A DNA stretch of 34,780 nucleotides from positions 1-34,780 of IMG/VR virus record IMGVR_UViG_3300032516_000091; one strand, written 5' to 3'. This document shows, piece by piece, positions 7,265 through 33,663 of the stretch (its first letter is position 1; the number at the start of each line of letters is the position of its first letter). Origin of the DNA: a virus. The notes beneath the pieces were generated by a model. It was not told the origin of the DNA and did no database searches. It saw nothing but the letters and a program-made list of their open reading frames with translations. A program made the translations under genes and the position numbers.

Positions 7265-7313
7265 GGGTATATATATGTTAACTCATGCTAACATTAGCGC
7301 AATATATATACCC
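7265..7313. promoter_or_regulatory. Dyad-symmetric double TATA promoter of the virion operon
   Basis: GGGTATATATAT at 7265-7276 and ATATATATACCC at 7302-7313 are perfect 12-bp inverted repeats. Between them TGTTA (7276-7280) and TAACA (7289-7293) form a smaller dyad. The right-hand box is spaced to start transcription near 7332-7338, right at the portal ATG (7337), which has no Shine-Dalgarno sequence. This suggests an archaeal TATA promoter giving a leaderless message. The symmetry may also bind a dimeric regulator. Confidence 0.6.
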
Positions 7314-26606: not shown

Positions 26607-26631
26607 CGGGGTGAGAAGAATTAATAATGCA

Positions 26632-26744
26632 ATCGTCGATGTACCCGCTGCGGTAGAGCAACCGCAGGCACGACGATATGAGACGGGGAGCCAAGCCCCG
26701 GAACATGATCGGCGTAGAATCAAGAAGCGCAAGGGCGGAAGCCC
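26632..26744 (+). ncRNA. Candidate structured RNA upstream of integrase fragment
   Basis: ATCGTCG (26632-26638) pairs perfectly with CGACGAT (26671-26677), and inside it CTGCGGT (26648-26654) pairs with ACCGCAG (26661-26667). Two more hairpins follow: CGGGG/CCCCG (26684-26688, 26696-26700) and GGGC-GGAA-GCCC (26733-26744), the latter closed by a GNRA-type tetraloop. The stretch lies between the stop at 26606 and the preferred ATG at 26779. A GTG at 26611 would instead make it an N-terminal extension, so non-coding status is not certain. Confidence 0.4.
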
Positions 26745-26778
26745 AAGACAGCCAAGGAAACGCGGGGGCGCGATAAGC

Positions 26779-27168
26779 ATGGGCCGCTATCCCCTGCAGG
26801 CATACATCAATCAATACCTGGAGAAGCGGCGCGAGAAGTGGGCTCCGGAGACGTACATCGAGAGAACCCGGAAGCTGAAGTATATCGGCAGGGCAATCGT
26901 CGAGATGCACAGAGCCGGAGAGATACGCACCGAGAACCCCAAGCAGTTCGGAGAGCCGGAGATCCGGGCAATCGAGAGCTGGATGAAACGCATCGGCTTG
27001 GACCCGGCCACGAGGTCGAAGTACAGGGGCATGGTCTCGAACTTCCTGGCATACCTAGGAAACACCACATACCTGAACGAGATAAAGTACGGAGAGATAG
27101 ATACCAGGGTGCCGCCGAAGACCATCAAGACGCTGTCCAGCCATTACTACGGGGCATTGCTGGCATGA
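26779..27168 (+). CDS. Integrase core-binding domain without catalytic domain (129 aa)
   Basis: The protein matches the N-terminal SAM-like, core-DNA-binding domain of tyrosine recombinases: YINQYLEKRREKWAPETYIE, a T-x-x-x-Y-x-x-x-L helix pattern, then SKYRGMVSNFLAYL and the linker PPKTIKTLSSHYYGALL, which corresponds to the very start of the catalytic domain. The stop follows at once, so the R-K-H-x-x-R-H-Y catalytic domain is missing and no downstream frame restores it. GTG 26611 would add 56 basic, low-complexity residues, but that stretch folds as RNA, so ATG 26779 is preferred. It could be a domesticated DNA-binding protein or a decayed integrase. Confidence 0.65.
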   Translation: MGRYPLQAYINQYLEKRREKWAPETYIERTRKLKYIGRAIVEMHRAGEIRTENPKQFGEPEIRAIESWMKRIGLDPATRSKYRGMVSNFLAYLGNTTYLNEIKYGEIDTRVPPKTIKTLSSHYYGALLA

Positions 27169-27771: not shown

Positions 27772-28698
27772 ATGAAAGGCTACAAGATGACAAAGCCAGA
27801 TGGGACGTGTTTCTACAACGGCCTGATAAAATACGAAGTAGGAAAAACAATACTGGCGAACAAGAAGAACATGGACAGGACCAACACTCTCTCGCTGGGC
27901 ATCAGCGTTGCGAAAGAGCCGCACGTCCCTCTGAAATATAATGCTCGATACCCCTGGCGGCTGTTCGAGGTCAAGTTCGATAAAAAGGATATCATCGAGG
28001 AGACAGAGGACAAGTACATCGTCGAGCCGATAACCGTTGTGAAGGAACTCAAGCCCTGGGACATAGATTTACCCAATGCGAAGCGAGTGTATGATAAGAT
28101 TGCATCTGCCAGCAAAATCAGAATGCTAGCGCAGACAGCCGAGCGAAAGAAAAAGATTACCGCTCTTGTAAAGCAGCACGTTGCGAGACTGAACAGAAAG
28201 CACGGCTCACAAACTGTAAAGTTAACCGACATACAATTTCATACAATAAAAGAGTGGGCCAGCGTCAGGGACAGCGTCTGGGACAGCGCCTGGGACAGCG
28301 CCTGGGACAGCGTCTGGGACAGCGTCAGGGACAGCGCCTGGGACAGCGTCTGGGACAGCGTCTGGGACAGCATCAGAGCCAGCATCAGAGCCAGCATCAG
28401 AGCCAGCATCTACGCCAGCATCGACGCCAGCATCGACGCCAGCATCTACGCCAGCATCGACGCCAGCATCTACGCCAGCAGCAGAGCCAGCATCTACGCC
28501 AGCATCAGAGCCAGCATCTACGCCAGCATCAGAGCCAGCATCAGAGCCAGCATCTACGCCAGCATCATAGATGAGGATGCCAGCAATCCATTTTTACCCC
28601 TGCAAAAAATCTGCGAGGCCGGTGGAGTATTCTACGGCATTGACAAGGATGGCGTGGCTCACGTAATCATGCCAGATAAGTCGGAGGTGGCCGAATGA
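27772..28698 (+). CDS. Tetrapeptide-repeat protein with DUF7666-like N-terminus (308 aa)
   Basis: The start is ATG 27772, just after the previous stop. Residues 1-110 (KYEVGKTILAN, PWRLFEVKFDKKDI, YIVEPITVVKELKPWDI) resemble an uncharacterised N-terminal domain seen in phage proteins that carry repeats (DUF7666-like, from memory). A basic helical linker (about 110-162) follows, then 26 four-residue units: nine of the W/R-DS-x type and about seventeen of the ASI-R/Y/D type. A short C-terminal domain (NPFLPLQKICEAGG) closes the protein. Serine at every fourth position suggests a regular solenoid or helix. Expansion or contraction of 12-bp units would keep the frame. Function unknown. Confidence 0.7.
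   Translation: MKGYKMTKPDGTCFYNGLIKYEVGKTILANKKNMDRTNTLSLGISVAKEPHVPLKYNARYPWRLFEVKFDKKDIIEETEDKYIVEPITVVKELKPWDIDLPNAKRVYDKIASASKIRMLAQTAERKKKITALVKQHVARLNRKHGSQTVKLTDIQFHTIKEWASVRDSVWDSAWDSAWDSVWDSVRDSAWDSVWDSVWDSIRASIRASIRASIYASIDASIDASIYASIDASIYASSRASIYASIRASIYASIRASIRASIYASIIDEDASNPFLPLQKICEAGGVFYGIDKDGVAHVIMPDKSEVAE
28258..28569 (+). repeat. Coding 12-bp tandem repeat array, about 26 units
   Basis: Consensus units are GACAGCGTCTGG (nine units of the first type, including variants) and then GCCAGCATCTAC, GCCAGCATCAGA or GCCAGCATCGAC (seventeen). The change of type occurs once, near 28366-28377. Units match the codon frame exactly, so any change in unit number only adds or removes four residues. 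Confidence 0.9.
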
Positions 28699-28883: not shown

Positions 28884-28955
28884 AGCACGGGGTTAGGTGA
28901 GAACGACAGTGCAAAGCTATCGTTCTCACCTAACCCCGTGCTTCTTTTTTTATTT
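28884..28955 (+). terminator. Long perfect hairpin with T-tract
   Basis: Bases 28884-28906 and 28920-28942 form a 23-bp perfect stem with a 13-base loop, with a few more pairs possible at its base. They are followed by a T-rich run (TTCTTTTTTTATTTT). It is the strongest terminator-like element in the window and lies just past the probable stop at 28866. The stem is longer than terminators need, so processing or an RNA-based role is also possible. Confidence 0.7.
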
Positions 28956-28976
28956 TCACGGATCAGTCTTTTTTTA

Positions 28977-29088
28977 GCGGGGTATGGCGGAGCACAGACT
29001 ACTTTTGAGAAGGATGGGTTGTTTCCATTACCAGGGGCTGCTGCCCCTGGTACACCTCAATCGTTGTGCCAATCCGCTCATGCCCTGC
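28977..29088 (+). ncRNA. Candidate structured ncRNA R1
   Basis: The outer helix pairs 28977-28996 with 29065-29088: ten pairs (two of them G-U), a one-base bulge, five pairs, a three-base bulge, five pairs. Inside, TTGAG (29005-29009) pairs with CTCAA (29056-29060), and TACCAGGGGC (29029-29038) pairs with GCCCCTGGTA (29043-29052) around a TGCT loop. The G-U pairs suggest selection on RNA. A seven-T run lies just before it and the gene at 29131 just after. It may be an independent small RNA or a 5' leader element. Confidence 0.55.
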
Positions 29089-29130
29089 ATTTAGAGTTAA
29101 TAAGTTTCGGAGTGCAGGAGGTAAACAAGG

Positions 29131-29382
29131 ATGGCAACTAAGATATCGTTGGAAGTGGAGCTGAAGGAGATCGTCACCAAGACCGTAGAAAAGGATGACG
29201 AGGAGACGGAGTCGTTCACCTACAAGATGGAAGGGAACGCCGGGGAAAAGCTGGCATTGACCACGTCCTTGAAGAGAGAAATCTACCCAGGGGCGAAGTT
29301 CACTGTATCGTTCAACAACGATCAGAAGACGCTCGATGAAACACCCGAGAAGCCGGCAGGGAAGGGAAAGAAGAAACAGTGA
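29131..29382 (+). CDS. Small acidic/basic protein between two RNA candidates (83 aa)
   Basis: AGGAGG lies upstream of ATG 29131. The product is a beta-rich domain (ISLEVELKEIVTKTVEKDDE, YPGAKFTVSFNNDQKTL) with a basic tail (KPAGKGKKKQ) that could bind nucleic acid. I recognise no family. The gene is framed by structured intergenic stretches on both sides (28977-29088 and 29391-29565), so an RNA-related role is worth testing but is only inferred from position. Confidence 0.6.
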   Translation: MATKISLEVELKEIVTKTVEKDDEETESFTYKMEGNAGEKLALTTSLKREIYPGAKFTVSFNNDQKTLDETPEKPAGKGKKKQ

Positions 29383-29390
29383 GCGGCGGG

Positions 29391-29565
29391 ACTTTTGTGT
29401 GTGTGTGCAACCGTCAGTCCTAACGGGCTAACCGACGCGGTCGAAGGCGGCACACGGAGCAGACGCAGGGTCGGGATGCAGTGGCAGGTCTGTTGCCACG
29501 GAAAACGGTAAAAGCCAGCATCCTACGGCCCTGCACACAAAACTCCGCACACACACACAAAACTC
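29391..29565 (+). ncRNA. Candidate structured ncRNA R2 with nested helices
   Basis: TTTTGTGTGTGTGTGC (29393-29408) pairs perfectly with GCACACACACACAAAA (29547-29562). Nested inside are GCAGGG/CCCTGC (29465-29470, 29529-29534), GGATGC/GCATCC (29474-29479, 29518-29523) and hairpin GTGGCA/TGCCAC (29481-29486, 29494-29499). Two small hairpins, CCGT/ACGG (29411-29426) and ACCG/CGGT (29431-29441), branch from the 5' side. A second, shorter copy of the 3' strand (29533-29542) could compete for pairing. No convincing gene occupies the stretch. Confidence 0.55.
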
Positions 29566-29591
29566 GTCAACATAAAAGGGATAGGGAAAAA

Positions 29592-29915
29592 ATGAAACGA
29601 AAATCAAGAGAGGGGTCAGCGTTCCGACTAAAATACAACAAGGTTGCGAATGCGATACGAAATGCAAGCGTGGATGGTAGGATCAGGGAAAAAGTGCTGA
29701 AGAACATAATTAGAGACATAATCCCAAATGCCTTAGATACTAGGACTCAGGAAAGGTGGCTGGTTGACTTGCAATACCCACCAGCCTGGTCGGGGTGTGC
29801 GCCGGTGCTGTCCGCGATTGGCCGCGCAACGGGACAGGTTTATTACGAAGTTCTCCCGGAGCGGACTCAAAAAGTTTCGATAGAAACGATTGTTTTTCAG
29901 GAGGCGAACAGGTGA
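29592..29915 (+). CDS. Hypothetical protein (107 aa)
   Basis: ATG 29592 is preferred; an in-frame ATG at 29481 would run through the structured RNA candidate and adds a low-complexity start. The protein has a basic N-terminus, two helices (NAIRNASVDGRIREKVLKNI), and a C-terminal beta part (GQVYYEVLPERTQKVSIETI). No family recognised. Its stop overlaps the GTG of the following gene, so the two are probably co-translated. Confidence 0.55.
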   Translation: MKRKSREGSAFRLKYNKVANAIRNASVDGRIREKVLKNIIRDIIPNALDTRTQERWLVDLQYPPAWSGCAPVLSAIGRATGQVYYEVLPERTQKVSIETIVFQEANR

Positions 29916-32789: not shown

Positions 32790-33355
32790 AACAGGAAACC
32801 CTCGATTCACGCACAAAGGGCGAGGCGCTGCCGCCGATCCCGCAACCCAACGACCTGATGCCGAGGGACCAGTACCATTCCACTCACGAGATGAAAGACA
32901 CGTCCATGGACGTCTTTAGCAAAATGGTGGAGACCGGCGACAAACTCGCAAGGAAAGACCTGGTCCTCGGGTACGTCATCAAGCACCCAGACCTGACCGC
33001 GAAGGAACTGGTCAGGGAGATGGTCAAGGACGGGCATTTCGCGTTCAACGACGGCAACCTGGCCCGCCCCCGCCTGACGGAGCTCCAAGACGAGCTGAAG
33101 ATTTTCACGCCTTACAAGCGCGTCTGCGCGGTGACGAGTGAGTACGCCTATGTCTACCGGAGCGCGCAGGTGAAGTACCTGCTCACGATTGAAAGCCGGT
33201 CCGAGCCAGGAACCAACAACGTCACGATTTACTACACCGACGGGACGATTCACTGCACGTGCAAGGGCCGCAGGATCCATGGGCACTGTCACCACGCCGA
33301 GGGAATGCTGCTGATGGTCGAGGGGAAGCGGATTAATCTGGAGGCGAAGGAATGA
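32786..33355 (+). CDS. SWIM zinc-finger protein with winged-helix-like region (189 aa)
   Basis: The C-terminal part has CTCKGRRIHGHCHH at about residues 152-165, the CxCx(n)CxH signature of a SWIM zinc finger, which binds DNA or protein in recombination and transposition proteins. Residues about 60-130 (LVLGYVIKHPDLTAKELVRE, RPRLTELQDELKIF) read as a winged helix. Both flanking junctions are ATGA overlaps, next to an Hjc-like nuclease. I infer a DNA-binding role in recombination or repair. Confidence 0.75.
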   Translation: MKQETLDSRTKGEALPPIPQPNDLMPRDQYHSTHEMKDTSMDVFSKMVETGDKLARKDLVLGYVIKHPDLTAKELVREMVKDGHFAFNDGNLARPRLTELQDELKIFTPYKRVCAVTSEYAYVYRSAQVKYLLTIESRSEPGTNNVTIYYTDGTIHCTCKGRRIHGHCHHAEGMLLMVEGKRINLEAKE

Positions 33356-33663
33356 ACTCAGACCGTAAGGGGAAGGTCGGGGAACGCGAGCTGGCGAACG
33401 AATTGAAACGGTATGGTTACCAGGCGCGGAGGGGCCAGCAATTCTCCGGCATCGAAGGCGAGGACGTCGTAGGTTTGCCTGGCATACACATCGAGTGCAA
33501 GCGCGTGGAGCTGATAAACATCAACAAGGCCATGGACCAGGCCGTCGAGGACGCGAAGCCGGGCGACATGCCGGCGGTCTTCAGCCGGAAGAATAGCAAG
33601 CCCTGGCTGGTGACGATGAGATTAGAGGATTGGATTAAACTATATGGGAGGGACAGGACATGA
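33352..33663 (+). CDS. PD-(D/E)XK nuclease, Holliday-junction-resolvase-like (103 aa)
   Basis: The compact 103-aa protein has the resolvase/VRR-type order: KGKVGERELANELKRYGY (Glu12 helix), then GEDVVGLPGIHIECKRV, giving Asp38 and E-x-K (Glu49, Lys51), and a final DAVFS-like segment (PAVFSRKN). These metal-binding residues define PD-(D/E)XK nucleases, and size and order suit Hjc-like enzymes, which resolve branched DNA before packaging. Translationally coupled to SWIM and ParB-like genes on either side. Confidence 0.8.
   Translation: MNSDRKGKVGERELANELKRYGYQARRGQQFSGIEGEDVVGLPGIHIECKRVELININKAMDQAVEDAKPGDMPAVFSRKNSKPWLVTMRLEDWIKLYGRDRT

Follow-up and report, generated by a model that had tools for sequence, protein, structure and literature searches.

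The window analysed here is a whole contig of 34,780 bases from an unclassified tailed virus. It has no end repeats and encodes a terminase large subunit, a portal/Mu-F fusion and a major head protein, together with a ParB-like protein, a RusA-like protein and two DNA methylases, with all predicted genes carried on the + strand. The terminase large subunit belongs to phrog_2, and the contig may be incomplete. We found no close relatives of the virus in the collections searched: the best matches of the terminase, all in distant records, had only about 30% identity, and the search with the capsid protein gave no match. The best single shared genes were a methylase (63% identity, in one contig) and the small PDDEXK/RusA-like gene at 33352-33663 (65% identity to a gene in another contig, L010). 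The terminase of L010 is only about 31% identical to that of our virus, so the higher identity of the small gene can be taken as a sign of gene exchange. ARAGORN detected no tRNA genes in the whole window. Other features are a truncated tyrosine-recombinase-like protein at 26611-27168, of which only the N-terminal part matched an integrase (phrog_1, E 0.002), a DUF7666-like gene ending in a series of coding repeats at 28240-28580 (WDSVWDSA followed by RASIYASID units), and a 12-bp perfect inverted repeat, GGGTATATATAT/ATATATATACCC, at 7265-7313, directly upstream of the portal gene.

The element studied here, R2 (29385-29568, + strand, ~184 nt), occupies the space between two small + strand genes of no known family, one of 83 aa (29131-29382) and one of 107 aa (29592-29915). 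It starts two bases past the stop codon of the former (29380-29382) and ends 23 bases before the start codon of the latter, at 29592. The structures modeled for the proteins on either side were of insufficient quality for use (mean pLDDT 47 and 49), neither flanking gene nor the nearby genes scanned matched reverse transcriptase families, and no match to a sigma-70-type promoter was found near R2 or the 83-aa gene. The stretch is non-coding. The codon score across R2 reached only -0.19 in the best frame, versus 0.25 ± 0.15 in real virus genes, and a coding explanation was rejected since no frame uses codons as the virus genes do. Farther upstream lies the hairpin R1 (28884-28942), the strongest fold of the contig, with 23 perfect pairs plus three more, a 5-base loop and then a T-rich tract. 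The initial annotation had grouped R1, the small gene and R2 into one RNA island, but R1 is better read, and most simply, as an intrinsic terminator of great length serving the upstream genes; in that case R2 would belong to the next transcript, along with the 83-aa gene. A second perfect hairpin, UACCAGGGGC/GCCCCUGGUA (29030-29053, -21 kcal/mol), is located between R1 and the 83-aa gene, and no T-run follows it.

The ends of R2 are held by the closing helix P1, in which the 16-nt strand UUUUGUGUGUGUGUGC (29393-29408, + strand) pairs without mismatch with GCACACACACACAAAA (29547-29562), with a mean pair probability of 0.99. This is the second-longest perfect inverted repeat of the contig and one of only three of at least 12 nt with arms within 200 bases. 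As a null we used 100 dinucleotide shuffles of the whole window, again with arms within 200 nt; the longest perfect inverted repeat across all of them was 14 nt, indicating that the length of P1 is beyond chance and bearing out the perfect 16-bp helix described in the initial annotation. That description had left out six additional pairs across an AC bulge (GGCGGG, 29385-29390, with CUCGUC, 29563-29568), present both in the prefix fold to 29570 and in the constrained fold, which bring the clamp to 22 pairs in all. CA/GT runs of at least four units occur only twice in the contig, namely in the two arms of R2. The non-repeat ends of these arms pair as well (UUUU/AAAA and GC/GC).

The whole element folds at -88.0 kcal/mol on the + strand with a z of -6.5, compared with -3.9 on the minus strand. 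A + strand fold of -81.5 kcal/mol likewise gave a z of -6.5 against -4.0 on the minus strand, and none of 200 shuffles was as good. Among the 788 window-strands scanned, R2 was the second most structured locus, after the hairpin R1. Without the CA/GT arms the z of the interior is only -3.0. P1 and the inner helices P3-P7 kept their probability in 570- and 750-nt contexts (400-570 bases added), which indicates that the R2 domain folds on its own. The five G-U pairs, in five different helices (P2, P2a, P4, P6 and P7), fit a + strand RNA better than a DNA palindrome.

Inside P1, the initial annotation had drawn three nested 6-bp helices; the lengths obtained here for P3 to P6 are instead 4, 9, 6 and 7 pairs, and the minimum-energy fold contains in addition a 5' three-way branch that had been overlooked. 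This branch (29411-29450, + strand) consists of P2 (CCGUC/GGCGG) and the hairpins P2a (29416-29429) and P2b (29433-29443), with pair probabilities of 0.63, 0.95 and 0.38, respectively; with these values and a z of its own of -0.5, it is the least certain part of R2. Then follows P3 (GGAG, 29456-29459, with CUCC, 29543-29546; probability 0.96), which leads to a 70-nt arm free of repeats (29465-29534, + strand) with a z of -4.8 by itself and pair probabilities of 0.95-1.0. In the minimum-energy fold this arm is made of P4 (29465-29473/29526-29534) and, beyond a UA bulge, P5 (29474-29479/29518-29523), which opens into a three-way junction with P6 (29481-29487/29493-29499) and the 3-bp P7 (29507-29509/29514-29516).

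The complete linker between P3 and P4, CAGAC (29460-29464), and the complete hairpin loop of P6, GUCUG (29488-29492), are exact reverse complements of each other, a relationship absent from the initial annotation. In shuffles redistributing the unpaired letters a 5-nt loop-linker match was reached in 7 of 5000, although the match was noticed only post hoc, after inspection of the fold. The complementarity suggests a pseudoknot or a loop-linker dimer, a type of pairing with a precedent in the phage RNA GOLLD (PMC12286853). If P4-P6 were stacked straight, the P6 loop would be ~22 bp away from the linker, so that either P6 must fold back or the pairing would join two molecules.

A shorter duplicate of the closing 3' strand, also reported initially, does exist: CACACAAAACTC is found at 29534-29545, where it could pair, more weakly, with the P1 5' strand instead, and again at 29554-29565, inside P1 and its extension. 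The switch proposed on this basis fared less well. When the pairing with the first copy was forced by constrained folding the energy was -74.3 kcal/mol versus -89.5, i.e., about 15 worse, which makes the second state thermodynamically negligible, and we reject a two-state switch at equilibrium. The alternative pairing does appear as a folding intermediate. In growing prefixes the GU strand pairs with its earliest available partner, a local CACAC (29451-29455), then with the first copy of CACACAAAACTC, and ends in the final helix with the second copy. This partner exchange may plausibly be a folding path rather than a demonstrated two-state device.

Searches for known families and for relatives returned R2 as a single sequence. 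None of the 4227 models of Rfam release 15 matched the window at gathering score, and at E values up to 10 there was no plausible match within 29385-29568; the relaxed matches were discarded as chance or as microRNA-precursor look-alikes on hairpin R1. The earlier statement that no known RNA class fits thus stands, with a strong + strand fold, a non-coding stretch and no Rfam match. We detected no DNA similarity to R2 in phage and plasmid collections, no match of the exact 19-mer of the arm in viral contigs, no match of a 29-mer of the 5' domain (one free position) in genomes and no second copy in the contig. Protein searches with the neighboring genes gave no relatives. Following the protein route with the terminase and the methylase gave distant records only. 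When covariance models for R2 as a whole and for its arm were run over these records, only R2 itself scored above chance level. For linker plus P6, a degenerate pattern had many matches in IMG/VR, all of them judged chance by context and model score. In sum, no homologue of R2 was found in the virus, genome, phage or plasmid collections searched.

We consider that R2 is probably an orphan structured RNA, with a function that is unproven. The claim is held at this level because the prediction of a fold from a single sequence is in itself no evidence of functional structure (PMC8250186). It seems to us likely that R2 functions as some form of + strand RNA structure, either self-contained or acting in cis. 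The more specific reading that we favor, tentatively and at somewhat below an even chance, is that of a self-contained virus RNA domain released from the mRNA. We observe its sequence, thermodynamic fold, strand bias, non-coding nature and single copy; its transcription, release and compaction, and any partner, we infer. R2 would be made from the + strand, in a transcript that also bears the 83-aa gene upstream, and its ends would be clamped by the 16-pair helix plus the six pairs across the bulge. With the tip loop of the P3-P7 arm complementing the linker at the arm base, the RNA would probably be compact or pair with a second copy. R2 could be freed from the mRNA by cuts in the long end helix or its flanks, for which RNase III is the obvious candidate, and the freed molecule would be protected by its end helix.

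The main competing explanation, which we regard as rather unlikely, is a cis-acting intercistronic element, i.e., a fold retained in the mRNA that governs stability or translation between the genes of 83 and 107 aa, for example by blocking exonucleases behind the former or by responding to ribosomes that stop two bases ahead. The location of R2 exactly between stop and start codon, with the predicted genes all on the same strand, is what such an element would have, a clamp of 22 pairs is an obvious barrier to exonucleases, and the prefix folds show the GU strand swapping partners as the transcript grows. However, a simple block needs neither the branched interior nor the loop-linker complement, and the alternative state costs 15 kcal/mol. 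Control of the 107-aa gene through a hidden ribosome-binding site (29578-29587) seems less likely because this site is predicted to be mostly open when either of two longer stretches is folded (29131-29700 or 28950-29700); when only 29383-29640 is folded, pairing is predicted for the last bases of the site and for the start codon.

The two remaining explanations deny the fold a function. CA and GT microsatellites might have grown by slippage beside a moderately stable intergenic stretch, as could be expected from the restriction of such runs to the two R2 arms and from the 12-nt direct repeat, 20 bp apart, that the 3' arm carries, as slippage would leave. Nevertheless, the non-repeat ends of the arms match too, the total length exceeds that of every shuffle, the repeat-free arm is significant alone and chance seldom produces the loop-linker match. 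We therefore view slippage as improbable, and the alternative of a CA-repeat expansion without structure is disfavored. Still more doubtful, and very improbable in our opinion, is that R2 represents the remains of a small inserted element, namely a miniature transposable element whose terminal inverted repeats are the CA/GT arms, the fold being a by-product. The 19-nt arms, 95% complementary, do surround a single block of 175 bp. Against this, we found no target-site duplication at either the 29385/29568 or the 29393/29562 boundaries, the contig contains a single copy and searches of phages and plasmids yielded no other, and the fold favors the + strand and has an interior arm significant by itself. 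R2 thus differs from miniature inverted-repeat transposable elements in having no flanking direct repeat and only one copy.

Several known systems can be compared with R2. The phi29-type prohead RNA (pRNA) has one end-clamping helix, a branched interior and a loop able to pair between molecules; it is bound to the portal of proheads, in a virus with a phi29-type packaging ATPase. R2 has a similar size, helix-clamped ends, a branched interior and a loop with possible intermolecular pairing, but has no Rfam match, and the contig, which may be incomplete, encodes an ordinary terminase large subunit rather than a phi29-type packaging ATPase. In the msr-msd RNA of retrons, hairpins are enclosed by a long inverted repeat, as in R2, and a reverse transcriptase adjoins the RNA, whereas no reverse transcriptase is present among the window genes scanned and R2 has no match to the Rfam models.

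A further parallel is offered by GOLLD and ROOL, structured RNAs of phages and prophages that are virus-encoded, intergenic and without known protein partner (PMC12286853), all of which also applies to R2. They are families with covariation that form cages and are often found near tRNA islands, many GOLLD being >800 nt (PMC12286853). A GOLLD loop pairs with a nearby linker, as proposed here for GUCUG and CAGAC. The differences are that GOLLD and ROOL are several times longer, that R2 matches no Rfam model, and that its window has no tRNA gene, tRNA neighbors being frequent in GOLLD and ROOL but not universal. A bolder proposal, which we think distinctly unlikely, is that R2 would be the first example of an RNA class not yet described, made up of ~180-nt virus-encoded molecules that are clamped and branched, assemble by intra- or intermolecular loop-linker pairing and act on their own in infection. 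The present value of R2 is that of a strong candidate resting on one sequence. GOLLD and ROOL turned out large and widespread, with a function still unsolved; if R2 is an RNA of this kind, being compact, undescribed and shorter than 200 bases, it would be a much more tractable RNA to probe and to solve.
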